A stretch of 64,000 nt of DNA from Candidatus Thiodiazotropha sp. LNASS1 (lineage in GTDB: Bacteria > Pseudomonadota > Gammaproteobacteria > Chromatiales > Chromatiaceae): contig NZ_OZ156465.1 in NCBI RefSeq assembly GCF_964212655.1, forward strand, positions 1,550,001 through 1,614,000, in the 5' to 3' direction. Position numbers and translations under genes: made by a program. This document shows positions 13,161-63,800 of the stretch, one piece after another; the first letter of the stretch is position 1; each line of letters starts with the position of its first letter. The notes beneath the pieces were generated by a model. That model saw only the letters and a list, made by a program, of their open reading frames with translations. It did no database searches and was not told the origin of the DNA.

Positions 13161-13221
13161 AGCAAGCCGCAAATGCTCGAGAATGTTTTATCCGCAAATG
13201 AACGCGAATAAACGCAAATTT
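13161..13221. repeat. solo end of the CCGCAAATGAACGC repeat family
   Basis: TCCGCAAATGAACGC continues at 13191 into GAATAAACGCAAATTT, the arm seen at both ends of the elements at 38517, 41970 and 43234. A degenerate GCCGCAAATG copy sits at 13166. No matching inverted partner was seen within about 250 bases, so this looks like a lone arm. It lies between valS and the tautomerase-like gene. Confidence 0.6.
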
Positions 13222-22703: not shown

Positions 22704-22727
22704 CTAGGGCCTGTTAACAGGCCCTAG
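22704..22727. repeat. perfect 24-bp palindrome, GGGCCTGTTAACAGGCCC family
   Basis: CTA-GGGCCTGTTAACAGGCCC-TAG is a perfect inverted repeat placed right after the mnmA stop and 34 bases before hflD. Further copies occur at 24134 (22 bp), 30716 (split), and partly at 7117 and 51132. Confidence 0.75.
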
Positions 22728-24025: not shown

Positions 24026-24133
24026 TAACAGATTGATTATCCAATGGCGGGAGAACACTGCCAATCTCTTTACGGGAACGCAGACCGGTCGTGAAGCCCG
24101 GATATCGGCCTGGTCTGCCAATGGCATTCACTC

Positions 24134-24155
24134 TAGGGCCTGTTAACAGGCCCTA
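24134..24155. repeat. perfect 22-bp palindrome, GGGCCTGTTAACAGGCCC family
   Basis: TA-GGGCCTGTTAACAGGCCC-TA lies between the LEA-like lipoprotein and purB, just upstream of the purB -10 box. It is almost identical to the copy at 22704. Confidence 0.75.
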
Positions 24156-24200
24156 ACACAGCGGAGGCGCTTTTCTGTGCAACTGTCGCCCGCGATCGGG

Positions 24201-38516: not shown

Positions 38517-38706
38517 GTCCGCAAATGAACGCTAATGAACGCTAATGGTTTTATGCTGCATTTGTCTGGCTCCTGCGTTCCTCCGCGGGAAACCACAATT
38601 TGTTCTGTTGTTTCGCTGAGATCTGCATTACCCAGCGGGAGCGTGGGAACCAGAAGAATCGACATATCATCTAAACATTTGCGTTTATTAGCGTTCATTT
38701 GCGGAC
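38517..38706. repeat. 190-bp inverted-repeat element, subfamily A, between hoxA and hoxJ
   Basis: The left end reads GTCCGCAAATGAACGCTAAT, then GAACGCTAATG. The right end, reverse-complemented, reads GTCCGCAAATGAACGCTAAT, then AAACGCAAATG. The core has a divergent form of the CTCCTGCG/GCGTGGGAAC hairpin found in the copies at 41970 and 43234. It fills nearly the whole hoxA-hoxJ gap. Confidence 0.8.
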
Positions 38707-55893: not shown

Positions 55894-56412
55894 CTAAAAG
55901 ATGGGCACCAGCTTATGTCCCTGTGTCTGCCAGCCGATGAGCGAGATGAAGCCATCCCCTACCACATCCATTTCCGGCAGAGTAGTAGCGTTATCCACCT
56001 CGAAGACACGGTTGGCGATGGCACAGACCTCCATTCGCACCCCTTTTGCCTTCAGTGCCTTGGCGGTATCTGCAATTGAATCAAGCTGCTTGCCATATTC
56101 CATGGCCAGGACGTCGTCAGGTTCGGTTGAAAGATAACGCACCGTCTCACCGATGAAGACCAGTACCATGTTGGGTTTCACGCCCTGTCTCACCAGACCC
56201 TCATGGGTTCCACGGATGATGTCGAGATAGAATGCTGTCTTCTGGGGATTGGTGAAATCGATAAGAAAGACACTGCGGGTCTCCTTCACCCCATTCAGTG
56301 CCATTGCATCGTTGATCTTTTCCGCTGCATTGGCCGAGTCCATGCTGAACAGCAGGAGGCCCATCAGCAAACCCCACCACCCTCTTTTTTGTATCGACTT
56401 ATTTATCATCAT
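55894..56412 (-). CDS. periplasmic DsrE-family protein
   Basis: This 172-residue protein has a signal peptide (GWWGLLMGLLLFSMDSANAA) and a DsrE/DsrF-like fold (SVFLIDFTNPQKTAFYLDII, VLVFIGETVRYLSTEP and VRMEVCAIANRVFEVDNATT). One conserved Cys lies in MEVCAIA. Exported DsrE-like proteins accompany periplasmic sulfur and quinoprotein systems, and may bind sulfane sulfur. I chose ATG at 56412 because CACAGGTG precedes it. The gene ends the mto cluster and follows tlpA on the same strand. Confidence 0.78.
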   Translation of the reverse strand: MMINKSIQKRGWWGLLMGLLLFSMDSANAAEKINDAMALNGVKETRSVFLIDFTNPQKTAFYLDIIRGTHEGLVRQGVKPNMVLVFIGETVRYLSTEPDDVLAMEYGKQLDSIADTAKALKAKGVRMEVCAIANRVFEVDNATTLPEMDVVGDGFISLIGWQTQGHKLVPIF

Positions 56413-56481
56413 ATGCACCTGTGATTTGATCGAAATGAACTCTGACACTGTTCAGCCAAAGACTGGAATCCAAAAAAAAAA

Positions 56482-57177
56482 TCAGTCAAGCTTTCTTGAT
56501 TCCGGCTGCAGGGTCTGTAGCTGATGCAGCAGTGCTGCATCGTCCCACTCCCGCTCGCCGACTGCCCGGTAGACGATTTCACCTCGACGATTCAGCACCA
56601 AGGTCGTTGGCAATCCCCGAACCTGCCAGCGCTGACTGATCCGTCCCCGGTGATCCAGCAACACGGGAAAATCGATGGGGAAGTCATTCAGGAATTCCTT
56701 GACCGCCTCCGCATCATCCCCCAGGTTGATCGCCAGCATGACGATCCCTTTGGGCTTCAACACTGTCCAGGCCCGGTTCATCGACGGTAGCTCGCGACGG
56801 CAGGGCACACACCAGCTGGCCCAGAAATTGACTATCAACACCCTGCCCCTGTAATCATGAAGTTGATGGTTTCTCCCTTCCAGATCCTGCAGGCGGAAAG
56901 CAGGCGCGGGTAGCGGCCTGACTGCAGCAAGCAGACCCTCAGTGGCCGATGCCTTCAATACAACTGACATGAATAGCGCAAACGACAGGATCGACCAGGT
57001 TAAGCCGGTCAGACTGTGCCCGAGGTAGCTGAAGGGACTCGAAACCTGTGCAGCTTGCCCACAGCCATCGACCGGCCAACCCGTATGGTCGAACCGGGAT
57101 AAAGAATAGAATGAATGTTCATTTCTGTCAACCATTTCACCCAGCGTTTTTCTGGCCTGGGAAATCATATCAGCCAC
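56482..57177 (-). CDS. TlpA-like thioredoxin-family protein, start uncertain
   Basis: This redox protein has a TlpA/ResA fold with WASWCVPCRRELPS and later GLPTTLVLNRRGEIVYR. A hydrophobic run (LTWSILSFALFMSVVLKASA) could serve as signal or anchor. The longest frame begins at GTG 57177, coupled to the SCO gene stop. However, a promoter-operator lies inside codons 16-25 of that frame (57103-57131). If it is used, translation must begin downstream, probably near the hydrophobic run where no canonical start codon was found. It probably keeps cysteines of a partner reduced during copper or haem maturation. Confidence 0.8.
   Translation of the reverse strand: MADMISQARKTLGEMVDRNEHSFYSLSRFDHTGWPVDGCGQAAQVSSPFSYLGHSLTGLTWSILSFALFMSVVLKASATEGLLAAVRPLPAPAFRLQDLEGRNHQLHDYRGRVLIVNFWASWCVPCRRELPSMNRAWTVLKPKGIVMLAINLGDDAEAVKEFLNDFPIDFPVLLDHRGRISQRWQVRGLPTTLVLNRRGEIVYRAVGEREWDDAALLHQLQTLQPESRKLD
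57103..57131 (-). promoter_or_regulatory. promoter with spacer palindrome, second mto operator
   Basis: On the minus strand TTGACA (57131-57126) and TATTCT (57108-57103) are spaced by 17 bases. The spacer GAAATGAACATTCATTC is a near-perfect palindrome. It matches the promoter at 61383-61411 at 24 of 27 central positions. It should drive tlpA and dsrE under the same repressor. Confidence 0.7.
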
Positions 57178-57736
57178 TTTCAGCCAATAACCCTCGTACC
57201 AGATCGAGAATATGCTTTGGTGGCATACCGTAGGGCACTACCGCGGTGAGCTTTCCCTGGCGGTCAATCAGGTAGAGGTTGGCCGAATGGTCGATGCTAT
57301 AGCCGCCATCCTCTCTTTCGTGTCTTTTGTAATTGACACGGTATTGCCGGGCCACCTGCGCCACTTCGTCCTCACTTCCGGTCAGCCCGACCAACCCTTT
57401 GTTGAAATAGTGGACATAGTCCCGCATCACTTCAGGGGAGTCACGCCCGGGATCCAGGGATACAAACAATCCCTGCACCCGATCCCCCTGATCATCCAGC
57501 TCATTGAGTACCGCAGCCACATTCGCCAGCTCGGTTGGGCAGATATCGGGGCAGTAGGTGTAGCCGAAGAAAAGCAGCACCAGCTTGCCCTGAAGCTGGC
57601 GCAATTCAAAGGGATTGTTGTTATGATCGGTCAGACTGAATTCGCCACCCAGCTCCTCGGTGTTGGCCCAGGTCACCGTGACCGAGAGTGCGCTGAAGAT
57701 CAGTAGAAACAGCAAGTGTTTAGCGGGTATCACCAT
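57170..57736 (-). CDS. SCO1/SenC family copper chaperone
   Basis: This 188-residue exported SCO protein has a signal peptide (LLFLLIFSALSVTVTWA), the copper ligands in YTYCPDICPTELANV and the distal His in YSIDHSANLYLID. SCO proteins insert copper or reduce cysteines in the Cu(A) site of oxidases. In mtoX clusters a SCO protein is always close by, since methanethiol oxidase needs copper. It begins directly after the SCO-MauG fusion stop (TGAATG) and ends overlapping the tlpA frame. Confidence 0.9.
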   Translation of the reverse strand: MVIPAKHLLFLLIFSALSVTVTWANTEELGGEFSLTDHNNNPFELRQLQGKLVLLFFGYTYCPDICPTELANVAAVLNELDDQGDRVQGLFVSLDPGRDSPEVMRDYVHYFNKGLVGLTGSEDEVAQVARQYRVNYKRHEREDGGYSIDHSANLYLIDRQGKLTAVVPYGMPPKHILDLVRGLLAESG

Positions 57737-59686
57737 TCAGCGCACCTCCACATCTGTACCGTGCACCCAACTCGGATCACCCTTTCCCACATCACCAACA
57801 GGCGCGGCAAAGGCATCGGCCACCAGGGTGTCCACATTGCCGCCGGTGAGGGATCGCATAAAGGCGACCAGATCCTGTTTCTCAGATTCATTTAATCCCA
57901 ACGGCCTGATCAAGGGATCGAGCAGCTCGTTTGCGACGCCCCCCCCGTCATAAAACTCAACGACTTCAAGCAGGGTACTGAAGGAACCGTTATGCATGTA
58001 TGGTGCCGTGAGCGCTACATTGCGCAAACTGGGTGTCTTGTACTTCCAGCGGTCGTTGGGATTTTGCGTCACCTCATACAGACCCACGTCAGTGGGTGCC
58101 GGTTCGCCCACCTGTTCGATGACCGATCGATCGATCTGCAGGGTCACACCCGGCGCCACCGTCACTGGCTGCGTCTCGGGCACTATTCCCATCGATTCCC
58201 TGTACCCTATACCGGTATTGTGCAGGCCATCGTCACTGAAGAGGGCATGCTTGTCGCCTATATGGTGGCAGGCCACACATCCCGCCTTGCCGACAAAGAG
58301 CTCAAAACCCCGCTGCGCTGATGCTGAGAGTGCCTGTTTATCACCCCCATAGTACCAATAATCGAAGGGTGAGCCTGCGGAAACGAGGGCGCGTTCATAG
58401 CTGGCGATGGCCATGCCGAGCGTCTCCATACTCACTCCCCTGCCATCGAAAGCAGCCTCGAAGCTACCCTCATAGTCATCGATCTTGCGGATCTTCTCCA
58501 GAACGTAGCCGATCGATGGATTGGCCATCTCGTTCCTGGCCAGCAACGGACCCCAGACCTGCTGTTCCAGGGTCTGCTCGCGCCCGTCGTGAAACAGCAT
58601 GGCGGCATAGGCCGAGTTGTAGATGGTGGGCGAGTTGCGCCGCACGCTACGCCCCTCTATGCCTACCGCCATGGCCAGCTCGTTGCTGGTGAATCCCTGC
58701 TCAGGGACATGGCACATGGCACATGAGAAAGTGTCGTTGAGCGAGAGCCTGCGGTCATAGAAAAGCTTTCTGCCGAGTTCGATCTTTTCCCGGGTTATGG
58801 AATTATTCTCCGGTACCGGTACCGGGGGCAGCCCCAGTGGCGGCTGTTCGATAAAGGTCATCAGATCCGCAGCCTGGCCTTTCCTCAACTCCAGATCGAG
58901 GGATCGAGTAACATAGCTCTCCTGCTCGTAACCCTGTTTATCATCCCCCGGTTTGGATAATTTTGAAGGCTCGGGGAGGCTCAGAGCAGCCTTTAACAAC
59001 CGACCTTGATTCTCTTCCTGCATCAGCAGCGTCTTCACATCGTTGATGATCAGATCGTGATGGAGAAAATCGACACTGTAGATATTGCGTATACGCTTTT
59101 GCGGATCGATGAGGAAGACCCGCAGCACATGGCTGTAGCCCACACTTGCCTTTCCGCTGCTGTCGACCTCCCGCTGAATCACCTGATTATAGGATTGCAA
59201 TATGGGTTGTAGCGCCCGATGCGAAGCGGTGGTAATGAACTGCCACTCCCCTGAACTTCCGGCATAACGAAAATTATTGGCATAGAGTTTCATCACCTCC
59301 GGCGTGTCGACTTCGGGATCGAAACTCAGACTGATCAGCTTCAGCCTGTCGGCCAACATCGCATCCCTTTTCATCGCCGATTTGATCTTATAGAAGACAT
59401 GGGAAGAGAGCGGGCATCCGTTAACGTCGCTGCAAGTACTGTAGATAAACGCCAACAGGACATAGCGGTCATTGAAGAGGTCGTGCAGACGCTGCTGTTT
59501 CCCTTCGCTGTTGAGCACCAAACCATTCCCTGCCTCACCTAGCGGTGGCAGGGAATAACCGCCTATCGCCGGCAGTGTGTAGCCCAACTCACCATAGCCT
59601 GGCGCTGAATCGGATAACGGATCGGCTGACGCTGTTGAAATCAGGATGGCGGCAAGCCAGACAGATCTTATAAATAGATTATGCAT
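57737..59686 (-). CDS. fusion of a SCO-like domain with a MauG-type di-haem peroxidase
   Basis: This 649-residue exported protein joins two families. After a signal peptide (VWLAAILISTASA), residues about 60-225 form a SCO-like domain. Its cysteine pair is Cys85 and Cys91 (STCSDVNGCPLSS), spaced by five rather than three, and His186 (GYSHVLRVFLID) completes the site. Residues about 285-649 form a MauG/cytochrome c peroxidase domain with two haem motifs, SCAMCHVPEQG (322-326) and GCVACHHIG (470-474). In known mtoX operons SCO and MauG are separate genes. Here they are one, and a free SCO follows. It probably matures the MtoX cofactor and delivers copper in one step. Confidence 0.87.
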   Translation of the reverse strand: MHNLFIRSVWLAAILISTASADPLSDSAPGYGELGYTLPAIGGYSLPPLGEAGNGLVLNSEGKQQRLHDLFNDRYVLLAFIYSTCSDVNGCPLSSHVFYKIKSAMKRDAMLADRLKLISLSFDPEVDTPEVMKLYANNFRYAGSSGEWQFITTASHRALQPILQSYNQVIQREVDSSGKASVGYSHVLRVFLIDPQKRIRNIYSVDFLHHDLIINDVKTLLMQEENQGRLLKAALSLPEPSKLSKPGDDKQGYEQESYVTRSLDLELRKGQAADLMTFIEQPPLGLPPVPVPENNSITREKIELGRKLFYDRRLSLNDTFSCAMCHVPEQGFTSNELAMAVGIEGRSVRRNSPTIYNSAYAAMLFHDGREQTLEQQVWGPLLARNEMANPSIGYVLEKIRKIDDYEGSFEAAFDGRGVSMETLGMAIASYERALVSAGSPFDYWYYGGDKQALSASAQRGFELFVGKAGCVACHHIGDKHALFSDDGLHNTGIGYRESMGIVPETQPVTVAPGVTLQIDRSVIEQVGEPAPTDVGLYEVTQNPNDRWKYKTPSLRNVALTAPYMHNGSFSTLLEVVEFYDGGGVANELLDPLIRPLGLNESEKQDLVAFMRSLTGGNVDTLVADAFAAPVGDVGKGDPSWVHGTDVEVR

Positions 59687-59703
59687 AGGTGCTCCCAGAC
59701 AGC

Positions 59704-59739
59704 GGCAACCCTGACAGAGATCTATCCGACAGGGTTGCC
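59704..59739 (-). other. stem-loop between mtoX and the SCO-MauG gene
   Basis: GGCAACCCTG (59704-59713) and CAGGGTTGCC (59730-59739) form a 10-bp stem with a 16-base loop, about 40 bases after the mtoX stop. No T-run follows. It may stabilise the mtoX message relative to the downstream genes. Confidence 0.6.
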
Positions 59740-59778
59740 TCCCTCCGGATGCCTGTCAGACACCCGGAACTGCCTGTA

Positions 59779-61167
59779 TCACTTGACGATGGACTCCAGA
59801 CTGGCTACGGAGACCTCCTTTTCCTCAGGCCTGACTGCACCATAGAGGGAGTAAGCACCGAAACGCATCTGGTGGGCGCGGCCGAGTTTCTCTTTATTGA
59901 AGTCGATAGCGAATTTCTCCACCAGCTTTTTGCCGTCCCAGACATAGCTCTTGAAGAACTGTTCGTTATCCTCGCCCTTCTTATCCCAGTTGGCCAGCAG
60001 CGAAGAGGTGTAATAGATACGGGTACTGTCCCAGCTGGAGGAAGCCATATTGACCTGGCGGCCGATCTTCTTTTCATAGACCTGCTTGGGATTGTGCGGA
60101 TCGGTCATGTCGAAGAGCCGGGTCTTGCCGTCCATAAAGGTGTTGACCCAGAGCCGGCTATCGTCGGAACTGATGGAGATATCCACCGGCAATGGCACCT
60201 TGGAAGGATCGCCGATATCGGCCACGGCCTTGGCCTGCCACTCGCCGTTCTCATCCTCATAGATCAGGTGCAGCTTGGAGGTGAGTGCCGTGGAGGTGAT
60301 ACACCAGTTATGGTTCGGCTGCCAGGCACAACGGATCTCCAGCGGCGCACCGGGTACGTCGAAGACTTTTTTCGGCTTCTTGCTGTGCAGGTCCCACAAC
60401 ACCACGGTGTTACCGAAGCGTTTCATCGCCTCCTTGTCCTGCAGCATCTTGCCGAAGTCCATCATGTAGTTGGACCAACCTGTGAACGAGGAAGTGAGCA
60501 TGATGTTACGTCGCGGCAATACACGCACGTCATAGTTGTAGCCGTCAGCGTACTTGCCGGTCTTCTCCGCGCCGCGCAGGTTCTGATCCGTGGGCATCCA
60601 GTGGGTTGCCACATACTCTCCCTCGTTGGTGTATTCAACCAGGGCGGTGCGGCCGCCGTGGTCTTTGTTGTTGGAGAGACCGGTGATCATGATACGTCCC
60701 GGCAAGGCATAGGTAGTGTGGGGCCCGACCACGCCGCCGCTTTTCTCCACAAAATCGGTAACGACCTTGTGCAGCTTGGGCTTGGCCGGATCGCTGTGGA
60801 CGTCGAAGATGAAGAGTTTGTTGGTATCGAGACCGCCTGCCCAGAGATAGTGCCGGTCATCGGTGAAGCCGGAGTGATGGGCCTCGTTGCGACCGCCTAC
60901 CGACAGGCTGTGGACCACCTTGCCGTAGTTGGATGAGTTCGGATTGACGTCAATGGTCACCAGCTTGTCCTGACCGTCTCCCAATCCCTCGATGCCGAGG
61001 GTCCAGACATAGACGAAATCCTCCTGGCCGACAATCTTGGCCATGTAGGGTGACTGGCAGGTTTCATCGGCCTGCAGTGGCAGAACCGCACCGAAAAGGG
61101 TGGTCCCGAGAGCCAGGGCGGATGCCAAGGCAATGGACTTGGCGGGCTTTTTCTTGAATAGCCTCAT
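59779..61167 (-). CDS. mtoX: methanethiol oxidase, SBP56 family
   Basis: MtoX oxidises methanethiol to formaldehyde, hydrogen sulfide and hydrogen peroxide in the periplasm, using copper. The 462-residue protein has a signal peptide (SIALASALALGTTLFGAVLP), then DETCQSPYMAKIVGQEDFVY, the start of the SBP56 family. Conserved segments are GGRNEAHHSGFTDDRHYLWA, GPHTTYALPGRIMITGLSN, LSNNKDHGGRTALVEY and VPLPVDISISSDDSRLWVNT. The context of SCO and MauG genes downstream is that of Hyphomicrobium mtoX. The product sulfide suits a sulfur oxidiser. A clear promoter-operator lies upstream. An alternative reading as a human-type selenium-binding protein is the same family. Confidence 0.93.
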   Translation of the reverse strand: MRLFKKKPAKSIALASALALGTTLFGAVLPLQADETCQSPYMAKIVGQEDFVYVWTLGIEGLGDGQDKLVTIDVNPNSSNYGKVVHSLSVGGRNEAHHSGFTDDRHYLWAGGLDTNKLFIFDVHSDPAKPKLHKVVTDFVEKSGGVVGPHTTYALPGRIMITGLSNNKDHGGRTALVEYTNEGEYVATHWMPTDQNLRGAEKTGKYADGYNYDVRVLPRRNIMLTSSFTGWSNYMMDFGKMLQDKEAMKRFGNTVVLWDLHSKKPKKVFDVPGAPLEIRCAWQPNHNWCITSTALTSKLHLIYEDENGEWQAKAVADIGDPSKVPLPVDISISSDDSRLWVNTFMDGKTRLFDMTDPHNPKQVYEKKIGRQVNMASSSWDSTRIYYTSSLLANWDKKGEDNEQFFKSYVWDGKKLVEKFAIDFNKEKLGRAHQMRFGAYSLYGAVRPEEKEVSVASLESIVK

Positions 61168-61293
61168 AGTTTCAACCTCCGTTGGTATTAATTTTTACTG
61201 CTATCGTGCGTTACCTCAGCCCTCCTCCTGCAGTTGGCCTATTTTGACTGCGCGCTGCTCCGCACAGTCTGGAAATACTACTCGTTACGCTTA

Positions 61294-61312
61294 TTTGCCG
61301 ATGATCCTTCGG
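61294..61312. other. hairpin in the mtoX leader
   Basis: TGCCGA (61294-61299) pairs with TCGGCA (61307-61312) in the 209-base leader that runs from the promoter at 61383 to the mtoX ATG. A regulatory role is a guess. Confidence 0.35.
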
Positions 61313-61382
61313 CATGAAAACCGTCTTTACTCTTCCAGTCCCGCTGCGGAACAGCAGGTAGAGAGGTACGCGGCTAAAAGGA

Positions 61383-61411
61383 AAAATAGAATGAATATTC
61401 ATTCTTGTCAA
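61383..61411 (-). promoter_or_regulatory. mtoX promoter with TetR-type operator in the spacer
   Basis: On the minus strand TTGACA (61411-61406) and TATTTT (61388-61383) are spaced by exactly 17 bases. The spacer and flanks form the perfect palindrome AGAATGAATATTCATTCT (61388-61405). It lies 56 bases before the divergent TetR gene and is repeated at 57103. A repressor bound here would block both mtoX and its own gene. Confidence 0.8.
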
Positions 61412-61466
61412 ATTTTTTACTATGCTGGGTATAATTGCCGACAAAATAAACCTATTAGGAACCCGC

Positions 61467-62099
61467 ATGCCCCATCTTAAAAAAATCACCCCGGCCAACG
61501 CCCCAGTGGACTGCCGCATTCTGAGCACAGCCCTCGACCTTTTTGTCGAACGGGGTTTTCACAACGTCTCGATACACGACATCCAGAAACAGGCCAACGT
61601 CAGCATCGGCTCTATCTACAACCACTTCGGCGGTAAAGAGGGCGTTGCCAAGGCGCTCTTCTACCATCTGATCAGGGAGATGGAGGAGTTGGTGGAGGAT
61701 GTCATCACCGAGGATCTGAGTTTTCGGGAGAGCTGCAACCGCATCATCTACCTGCTCTTTGAATACACCGAAACAAAGCGCAATATCATCTCCTACGTAC
61801 TGCATGCCAAACACCATGAGTTTCTGCCCGATGAGCCCCCGATCTGCAGCTCCACCCCTTTCAAGACTATGCGTAACATCGTGCAGAAGGGGATAGAGTC
61901 GGGCGAGATCCGGCAAGGCGACCCCTGGGTCGTCGCCTCCAACATCTTCGGCGGCGCCATCCGCTTGATCCACCTGCGTCTGGACGGCGTGCTTAACGAG
62001 CCTCTGCCCAATCTGTACGAAGAACTGATCGACTGTATGTGGCATGGCATGATGCCGACTTCGGTGAGCGAGGTAGTGGCAATAAGACCTACGGGTTGA
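61467..62099 (+). CDS. TetR family repressor of the mto cluster
   Basis: This 210-residue TetR regulator has a helix-turn-helix (NVSIHDIQKQANVSIGSIYN, then HFGGKEGVAKALFYHL). The C-terminal ligand domain is all-helical (YVLHAKHHEFLPDEPPICSS). I chose ATG at 61467 because TAGGAACCCGC precedes it; the frame open to 61422 adds 15 residues overlapping the operator. It is divergent from mtoX. The palindrome between the two genes and its second copy before tlpA-dsrE make it the likely repressor of both promoters. The ligand may be a methylated sulfur compound, which is inference. Confidence 0.88.
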   Translation: MPHLKKITPANAPVDCRILSTALDLFVERGFHNVSIHDIQKQANVSIGSIYNHFGGKEGVAKALFYHLIREMEELVEDVITEDLSFRESCNRIIYLLFEYTETKRNIISYVLHAKHHEFLPDEPPICSSTPFKTMRNIVQKGIESGEIRQGDPWVVASNIFGGAIRLIHLRLDGVLNEPLPNLYEELIDCMWHGMMPTSVSEVVAIRPTG

Positions 62100-62285: not shown

Positions 62286-62849
62286 TTAGAAAGGGACCGG
62301 AACGCCGGGGACGAGTTCCAACCCCGCCTCATACCATCCGTCACTGCCTTCCGGATACCAATAGAGATTTCTATAGCCCAGCGCATCTGCCCGCTTTACC
62401 GCGTTCCAGGACATCCAACAATCGACCACACAATAGAAGACCAACGCTCTATCCCTGTCACCCAGGGTGAGGCGTTCAAGGTTGGTTTGCATATAGGCAT
62501 GCATGCGTGAATCGAGATAGCCATATCCCACATTCGGCAACCAGGTGCTTCCCGGAATATGCCATCGCTGTCTGCTCGGCAGCCAGGCGATACCGAACTC
62601 CTCCGTCTCCGGACGCAGGGTGATTGCCTGGACATCCAATAACAACGGATTCTGCCGACGTATCAATTCGACAAGCAACCTGGTATCGAGGCGTTTTCCA
62701 GCGGGCGGCATCTCGGGCAGAGGTGCGCGATAACGGGCAATGCGGTAACCCTCCGGTGAAAAGAGCGGACTATCGGTCGCAAGCGTGACGGTAGGCTGTA
62801 GCGAAAGAATGGCGCATAGGATTGTCTCGGCAAAGGTGCGCATTCTCAT
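62286..62849 (-). CDS. PQQ-associated CXXCW-type rhodanese-like protein
   Basis: This 187-residue exported protein (signal ETILCAILSLQPTVTLA) belongs to the PQQ-dependent catabolism-associated CXXCW family, a rhodanese-like fold. The signature is Cys140 and Cys144-Trp145 in VFYCVVDCWMSWNAVKRADA; three residues separate the cysteines here. LLDVQAITLRP and GSTWLPNVGYG are also typical. Members are encoded with PQQ alcohol dehydrogenases and their cytochromes. It is the third gene of a minus-strand set whose first genes run off the right edge. The role is not known. Confidence 0.85.
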   Translation of the reverse strand: MRMRTFAETILCAILSLQPTVTLATDSPLFSPEGYRIARYRAPLPEMPPAGKRLDTRLLVELIRRQNPLLLDVQAITLRPETEEFGIAWLPSRQRWHIPGSTWLPNVGYGYLDSRMHAYMQTNLERLTLGDRDRALVFYCVVDCWMSWNAVKRADALGYRNLYWYPEGSDGWYEAGLELVPGVPVPF

Positions 62850-62855
62850 GCCGGG

Positions 62856-63800
62856 TCACTCTTGCACCACCCTGCCCCGGTCCAGCACCTTCGCCTCAAT
62901 CTCCGGAAACAGATGGATGACTGAGCGTTGATACTCCTCGAGAAAGACAGCCAGTTCCATGATCGATGGGGGTGCATCAGGTTGCAGTACTTCGGCCATG
63001 CTCATCCCCTGTTCCGCAGCCTTGTTCAGACGGGTTGTCAACCATTGCAGGTAATTTCGCGTCTGAGCGATTGCCCCGCTATCCGTGACCACACTGCCGT
63101 GCCCAGGTACCAGCAGCTTGAAATCAAGCCCGGCTATCGTATCAAGTGCCTGTAACCATTGTCCTACATCGGCATGGGGGGTGGTGGGTGTACGCCCATG
63201 AAACACAACATCCGCAGCAAACAACACCCCGGTCGCATGATCGAGAATCACCAGGTCGGCATGGGAGTGACCATCAAGCTCAATCAATTCAAGACGGTGA
63301 CCTCCGATCTCTACAAAACCCGGTTTAACGGTTTCGGTCGGCACCACTACCCGGGTACCCGCCATCCAGGCACCCGCCAGACGGTACATACTGTCGTTGA
63401 ACAGTTCACCCTGTTCACGGATACCTTCAACGGTACCCGCCAGGGCGGCTATGGGGATATCCTCGAAGGCCTGATTACCGAGGATGTGATCCGGGTGCAG
63501 GTGAGTATTGAAGAGCTTCAGAATCGGTCGGTCGGTAATCCTGCCAATGGCTGCGCGCAACTGTTCACCATAGAAGCGGGATGGCCCGCTATCGATCACG
63601 ATCACGCCATCGTCCGTCACGATAAAACCGACATTGACGATATTACCCCCGTTGCTGAAATTGAAATGTTCATTTTCACCCAGCAGCACATAGGTATCGG
63701 GTGCGATCTTAAGTGGTTTCAAGCCATAGTCCTTGGCGCCCCATACCGGTGTGAGGAAACACAGGCAGAATAGGAATATCACAATTCGCCGTGACGACAT
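62856..63800 (-). CDS. quinoprotein relay system zinc metallohydrolase
   Basis: This 314-residue exported metallo-beta-lactamase-fold protein has a signal peptide (IVIFLFCLCFLTPVWG). The zinc motif is FNTHLHPDHILGN, and further ligands lie in DGHSHADLVILD and LVPGHGSVVTD. It is related to SoxH. The family is found beside PQQ-dependent dehydrogenases with SoxYZ-like carriers and CXXCW proteins, and is thought to act on a carrier-bound species in a quinoprotein relay. Both neighbours here belong to that set. Its ATG overlaps the stop of the upstream gene (TAATG). Confidence 0.85.
   Translation of the reverse strand: MSSRRIVIFLFCLCFLTPVWGAKDYGLKPLKIAPDTYVLLGENEHFNFSNGGNIVNVGFIVTDDGVIVIDSGPSRFYGEQLRAAIGRITDRPILKLFNTHLHPDHILGNQAFEDIPIAALAGTVEGIREQGELFNDSMYRLAGAWMAGTRVVVPTETVKPGFVEIGGHRLELIELDGHSHADLVILDHATGVLFAADVVFHGRTPTTPHADVGQWLQALDTIAGLDFKLLVPGHGSVVTDSGAIAQTRNYLQWLTTRLNKAAEQGMSMAEVLQPDAPPSIMELAVFLEEYQRSVIHLFPEIEAKVLDRGRVVQE

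Follow-up and report, generated by a model that had tools for sequence, protein, structure and literature searches.

Two closely similar promoter elements lie in a 64,000-nucleotide stretch of DNA from Candidatus Thiodiazotropha sp. LNASS1 (contig NZ_OZ156465.1, positions 1,550,001 to 1,614,000; the whole of this stretch is referred to here as the window). Each carries a palindrome between the -35 and -10 hexamers of a sigma-70 promoter, and we propose, with a probability of close to nine in ten, that both are operators of the TetR-family regulator encoded at 61467-62099, through which it would jointly control the genes for methanethiol oxidation. We infer binding, repression and induction by this TetR from features of the sequences: the sites themselves, their rarity and conservation, the way that they track their targets, and their co-occurrence with the regulator. 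The promoters and genes concerned are as follows.

61383..61411, minus strand: P1, candidate promoter-operator of mtoX, with the -35 hexamer TTGACA at 61406-61411, the -10 hexamer TATTTT at 61383-61388 and the operator core at 61390-61403.
57103..57131, minus strand: P2, candidate promoter-operator of tlpA-dsrE, with TTGACA at 57126-57131, the -10 hexamer TATTCT at 57103-57108 and the operator core at 57110-57123.
61398..61426, plus strand: probable divergent promoter of tetR, with the -35 hexamer TTCATT at 61398-61403 inside the palindrome, a spacer of 17 bases and the -10 hexamer TATGCT at 61421-61426.
61467..62099, plus strand: tetR, a TetR-family regulator of 210 amino acids with two conserved cysteines, C90 and C127.
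59779..61167, minus strand: mtoX, methanethiol oxidase of the SBP56 family (NF052453, 794 bits against a cut-off of 650; PF05694).
57737..59686, minus strand: SCO1-MauG fusion, a probable MtoX maturation factor (PF02630 and PF03150).
57170..57736, minus strand: sco1, SCO1/SenC copper chaperone (PF02630, 162.9 bits).
56482..56970, minus strand: tlpA, TlpA/ResA-like thioredoxin-fold protein (PF00578; exact start not settled).
55894..56448, minus strand: dsrE, DsrE-family protein with an N-terminal signal-like segment recognized by eye (PF02635, 36.7 bits against a cut-off of 22.7).

On the minus strand, the copy near 61 kb reads TTGACA-AGAATGAATATTCATTC-TATTTT (61411-61383) and the copy near 57 kb reads TTGACA-GAAATGAACATTCATTC-TATTCT (57131-57103). 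Both spacers are 17 bases long, and direct reading places the palindrome AATGAAYATTCATT within them, between the hexamers. At 61 kb the palindrome is perfect over 16 bases (61389-61404), and at 57 kb the 14-base core has one mismatched pair, with six of seven pairs matching. A sequence-only reading of this DNA had described two 27-base sequences that differ at three positions, each with TTGACA, a 17-base palindrome-bearing spacer and a TATTTT or TATTCT -10 on the minus strand, all of which direct reading bears out. The two sites lie where it had put them; their ends needed correction, as the -10 hexamers reach 57103 and 61383. It was also right to place one copy before mtoX and the TetR gene and the other before tlpA and dsrE: the first sits between mtoX and tetR, and the second directly past sco1, ahead of the TlpA-like and DsrE-family genes. 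The names that it gave to these genes hold by the NF052453 score and by the TetR_N, DsrE and thioredoxin-like domains. SCO1/SenC and MauG-type genes, to which MtoX is linked, are present here (PF02630, PF03150).

A mechanically called tlpA reading frame runs across P2 up to 57177. In 7 of 14 relatives, stop codons interrupt the frame between the site and tlpA; the operator is therefore most likely not part of the gene, and the true start of tlpA is probably downstream of P2. For the tetR promoter, 19 of 26 relatives' loci have TATGCT at a distance of 17 or 18 bases from the operator, two of the remaining seven have TATGAT, and we regard the hexamers assigned to this promoter as probable.

In the mechanism that we propose, a TetR dimer on the palindrome would bar RNA polymerase at the mtoX operon (mtoX, the SCO1-MauG fusion and sco1) and would likewise repress the separate tlpA-dsrE promoter and its own divergent promoter. 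The palindrome fills the spacers of the mtoX and tlpA promoters, so that a bound dimer would exclude RNA polymerase. As the tetR -35 hexamer lies inside the palindrome of the mtoX promoter, one operator would govern both genes together, an arrangement that fits an autoregulated repressor. A small molecule or a thiol modification would free TetR when methanethiol oxidation is needed, and both operons would come on together. In relatives, the operator would also act at genes for glutathione-dependent formaldehyde dehydrogenase, S-formylglutathione hydrolase, formate dehydrogenase and glutamate-cysteine ligase.

Across the 4,746,093-base (4.75 Mb) genome, the exact core AATGAAYATTCATT is found just twice, at P1 and P2; one mismatch admits one further place, and likewise one for the reversed control. 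We searched with a 25-base composite query, TTGACANNAATGAAYATTCRTTCTA, allowing up to 3 mismatches and using its reversed sequence as control. P1 and P2 are the only matches in the genome (control, 0), and the 22 Candidatus Thiodiazotropha genomes of our genus set gave 45 matches versus 0 for the control. Allotted to targets by hand, 19 of the 45 precede mtoX, 15 precede tlpA and/or dsrE past sco1, six precede a relocated dsrE and five gshA. Next to the relocated dsrE is a gene whose product has an SRP54-type GTPase domain (resembling FlhF; one of the six was tested). Three of the five gshA sites are also divergent from formate dehydrogenase genes, and at one locus (L143) the gshA match is split into two separate pieces. 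The bare 14-mer has 46 sites in the same genomes, 44 of them at mtoX, tlpA/dsrE, relocated dsrE or gshA targets; one of the other two is at a DsrE-linked TetR paralog, and one stands before a DctP-type transporter gene in no promoter context. When the sites are aligned, the -35 hexamer, palindrome and -10 hexamer hold their register across unlinked loci while the flanks diverge; within the aligned set, the L081 and L084 sites are without TTGACA.

The site also accompanies the regulator and its targets. An ortholog of the TetR, the site and mtoX are each found in 19 of the 22 genus genomes, and these are the identical 19; the other three (G377, G434 and G449) are without all of them. Wherever a TetR ortholog (at least 53% identity) and mtoX occur together among the loci compared, the site precedes mtoX (25 of 25). 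In L070-L074, extra sequence parts tetR from mtoX and the first site remains with mtoX; in L076-L080, the second site lies about 320-770 bases away from sco1 and remains with tlpA. Among the 19 relatives' loci with sequence past sco1, 15 carry the second site within one mismatch. The regulator itself has counterparts of 97% identity in Candidatus Thiodiazotropha endolucinida and of 99% identity in a symbiont metagenome assembly from the clam Ctena orbiculata. Beyond these, we compared 28 other mtoX loci at the level of the class (L006-L033, with flanks of up to 1.5 kb): in L007 mtoX is preceded by an exact site, L011 has a TetR of 49% identity and two one-mismatch sites, and the remaining 26 have no site within one mismatch. 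Control of mtoX by this TetR would thus be confined to a lineage. The sequence-only reading had proposed a TetR regulon around mtoX, and the co-occurrence in 19 of 22 genomes, the sites that track their targets and the composite sites at unlinked pathway genes together support it.

In relatives, the operator extends beyond what that reading had proposed, to further genes. Three loci (L144-L146) carry, on one strand, the tlpA promoter followed by tlpA, S-(hydroxymethyl)glutathione dehydrogenase, S-formylglutathione hydrolase and dsrE, and have a further site between gshA and a NuoF-like gene that is followed by formate dehydrogenase alpha. A site precedes a formate dehydrogenase pair, with no gshA, in L151 and L161, and precedes adhC-fghA in L128, L130 (one mismatch) and L164, each time with tetR on the same stretch. 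Family scores in these relatives exceed their cut-offs: 663 bits for AdhC (cut-off 544), 410 for FghA (282), 478 and 460 for GshA (393) and 782 for Fdh-alpha (666). These placements suggest that the operator marks, in relatives, the route from methanethiol through formaldehyde and formate to CO2, together with glutathione supply and DsrE/TlpA. We also considered adhC, gshA and formate dehydrogenase as regulon members in the LNASS1 genome and rejected them there: adhC is absent over cut-off, and gshA and formate dehydrogenase are present but siteless. With no adhC over cut-off and no third site, the predicted regulon of this genome therefore consists of two operons and tetR, and the wider regulon is one seen in relatives. 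A related symbiont handles formaldehyde through the tetrahydromethanopterin route, according to the available part of the report (PMC11171427).

The regulator has the expected architecture. Its helix-turn-helix scores 58.4 bits on TetR_N (PF00440, cut-off 24) and its ligand domain 30.5 bits on TetR_C_10 (PF16295, cut-off 28); the AlphaFold model is an all-helical TetR fold (predicted local distance difference test score 87.5), and the Foldseek matches listed are TetR-type regulators (best E value 9.8e-08). As for other TetR/AcrR regulators, there is by sequence a palindromic operator in or over the target promoters. Of 51 distinct homologs, 47 retain C90 and 49 retain C127, with one sequence cut short ahead of C127; before duplicate removal the counts were 54 and 56 of 58. 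The protein thus shares two conserved cysteines with two-cysteine sensors of sulfane sulfur. TetR homologs of 54% identity occur in two sulfate-reducing Thermodesulfobacteriota loci (L132, L133). There, tetR is preceded by a perfect GAACGAACGTTCGTTC and immediately followed by a DsrE-family gene (DsrE scores of 23.0 bits in L132, barely above the cut-off of 22.7, and 29.8 bits in L133). Paralogs of 42-48% identity (L096-L100) have related sites such as AACGAACGTTCGTT. These distant TetR genes (L096-L100, L132 and L133) stand mostly beside dsrE with related palindromes such as AACGAACGTTCGTT, and their range extends to the Thermodesulfobacteriota.

The identity of the signal is the least certain step of the proposal. 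We tentatively favour, at odds well short of even, a signal in the form of reactive sulfur, either sulfane sulfur or a thiol (methanethiol, for example), that would be sensed by way of C90 and C127, because both cysteines are conserved, dsrE is a recurrent partner, and release of sulfane sulfur by MtoX has been reported. The last point comes from Rhodobacteraceae MtoX enzymes, in the portion of the source available to us (PMC10936201). On this reading, which is possible rather than probable, the TetR may be a sensor of sulfane sulfur, with DsrE as its old partner, that was recruited in sulfur-oxidising symbionts and their relatives to command, by means of a single operator embedded in promoters, the entire route from methanethiol to CO2, with MtoX, formaldehyde, formate and glutathione included. 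Methanethiol and formaldehyde come close behind as candidate signals.

Methanethiol itself could be the ligand of a classical pocket-binding TetR in which both cysteines are structural. In favour of this reading, mtoX accounts for more of the composite sites than any other target (19 of 45), and methanethiol induces mtoX in Ruegeria pomeroyi, where the neighbouring regulator is IclR-type (available part of PMC5739008). We consider it a little less likely than a reactive sulfur signal, as no mtoX accompanies the dsrE-linked homologs on the 20 kb examined of L132 and L133 and the molecule is very small for a TetR pocket. Somewhat less likely is that the inducer is formaldehyde or its glutathione adduct, and that mtoX, a source of formaldehyde, was drawn into a regulon for formaldehyde removal. 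In favour of this, some relatives bear the site at adhC-fghA, formate dehydrogenase and gshA, the stretches examined of L128 and L130 have tetR beside adhC-fghA and no mtoX, and formaldehyde could react with the conserved cysteines. However, the LNASS1 genome keeps its two sites yet has no adhC over cut-off, and a formaldehyde inducer does not explain why dsrE is a target in many genomes or why it adjoins tetR in L132 and L133, both from sulfate reducers. A reactive sulfur signal remains, tentatively, our first choice.

Several observations weigh against the operators and regulon as we have described them. In the LNASS1 genome itself, a family profile search found no adhC over cut-off, and the genome-wide search for sites returned P1 and P2 only, leaving gshA, formate dehydrogenase and a second mtoX without a site. 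Four of the 19 loci mentioned above (L067, L083, L084 and L085) have no second site, and four of 32 TetR loci (among L064-L095) have no site at all: L087, L089, L090 and L095, the first three of which have tetR after metK and metF. The bare 14-mer is noisier at the family level, where it is found in 50 of 194 genomes against 6, by our own count, for the reversed control. It appears in a genome with no TetR match (G141) and, with TTGACA not in place, at the gene for ribosomal protein L10 (L157), at nitrous oxide reductase genes (L154 and, by likeness, L159 and L160) and at sigma-54 regulator genes (L152, L155, L165 and L166). Finally, sites within one genus share ancestry and hence are not phylogenetically independent.

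With no TTGACA context, the nitrous oxide reductase, sigma-54 regulator, L10 and DctP-type transporter genes were set aside as regulon members. TetR homologs of 66-68% after metK and metF, with no operator copy, were seen at L087, L089, L090 and also L129. The second mtoX of the genome (L103:8908-10287, about 1651908-1653287 and outside the window) has no operator, and its 19 kb stretch has no match to this TetR.

Some of these observations, such as the 14-mer in G141 and other genomes that are without this TetR, would be expected if a different TetR-like protein bound the palindromes in the cell, with the neighbouring tetR as a bystander; the family paralogs (42-48% identity, L096-L100) with related sites such as AACGAACGTTCGTT offer candidates. 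We consider this very improbable, as the paralog loci carry variant sites of their own and the presence of the neighbouring tetR matches that of the site in 22 of 22 genus genomes.

The window itself contains 30 pairs of 27-mers within 3 mismatches, of which 27 are dispersed repeats (13187-45013), two are a repeated palindrome and one is the pair reported here; 38 of 40 dinucleotide shuffles of the window had no such pair and two had one. Because there are 30 such pairs, 27 of them from dispersed repeats, repetition inside the window is weak evidence by itself. That P1 and P2 are a chance repeat with a promoter-like look, as the 30 pairs might suggest, is nevertheless refuted by the composite search, with 45 matches versus 0 genus-wide and a conserved register. 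The dispersed repeat has the core TCCGCAAATGAACGC, near 13187, 38509, 41962, 43232 and 44899, with inverted copies near 38669, 42084 and 43404. The palindrome TAGGGCCTGTTAACAGGCCCTA occurs twice, near 22704-22727 and 24133-24156, 1.4 kb apart; the two copies are perhaps terminators.

Between P1 and its gene lies one further feature.

61168..61382, minus strand: mtoX leader of about 215 nucleotides, conserved in part of the genus.

The leader has one match each in 13 of the 22 genus genomes, with a mean column identity of 79% (12 sequences) and a folding z-score of -2.6; in the other six mtoX-bearing genomes, about 44-50 nucleotides separate site and gene. No Rfam family reaches its gathering score in the window, and the leader region has only a weak MicC match (20.6 bits versus 90). 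An RNAalifold covariation term of 0.37 and double changes in 3 of 33 pairs are too slight for a riboswitch to be claimed; the leader may still be a regulatory RNA. On the other side of P1, a pyrroloquinoline quinone-linked CXXCW protein and quinoprotein relay metallohydrolase 1 (62286-63800, minus strand) adjoin tetR; they are found at some of the genus loci only.

In the organic sulfur cycle, methanethiol oxidase holds a key place, and the only linked regulator that we found described is the IclR-type one of Roseobacters (available part of PMC5739008). With a regulator, an operator of 14 bases and named targets, control in the lineage studied here becomes directly testable. The proposed regulon connects the use of methanethiol by animal symbionts with dsrE, tlpA and the genes for glutathione and formaldehyde, and suggests organosulfur compounds as a regulated substrate of Candidatus Thiodiazotropha, the sulfur-oxidising symbionts of lucinid clams.

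Among known systems, the operator of Bacillus subtilis FadR is a palindrome built on TGAATGA/TCATTCA. FadR, a TetR repressor (PDB 3WHB, 3WHC), is among the closest solved folds and sequences to this TetR. The two differ in that the present protein scores 41.7 bits on NF053878, below the cut-off of 200, its C90 and C127 align to no cysteine of FadR, and its predicted targets are C1 and sulfur genes rather than fatty-acid genes. AcuR is a TetR-type repressor of dimethylsulfoniopropionate genes, likewise in organosulfur metabolism, with an acrylate-type inducer and other targets; on its family, NF051457, our TetR scores 22.4 bits, below the cut-off of 247. The response of sHdrR and SoxR to sulfur works through cysteines. 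These repressors of Hyphomicrobium denitrificans respond to reactive sulfur but have an ArsR fold, and mtoX of that organism responds to thiosulfate yet lies outside both regulons, according to the available part of the report (PMC12423496). The mtoX operon of Ruegeria pomeroyi likewise combines mtoX with SCO1/SenC and MauG genes and a linked regulator, and methanethiol raises its expression; the regulator there is IclR-type, not TetR, and the available part of that report describes no operator or wider regulon (PMC5739008). The open-access literature, judged by titles and abstract openings of the papers listed, yielded no TetR regulator of mtoX, no TetR-family persulfide or sulfane-sulfur sensor with cysteines, nothing that joins the TetR family with DsrE and sulfur oxidation beyond work on Arthrobacter plasmids, nothing of use on formaldehyde and glutathione in Thiodiazotropha, no paper on the FadR operator motif, and no paper naming both Thiodiazotropha and methanethiol. 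Devices in which a TetR operator occupies a promoter spacer are of a known kind; the regulator and regulon proposed here are, as far as these searches can tell, a new example.

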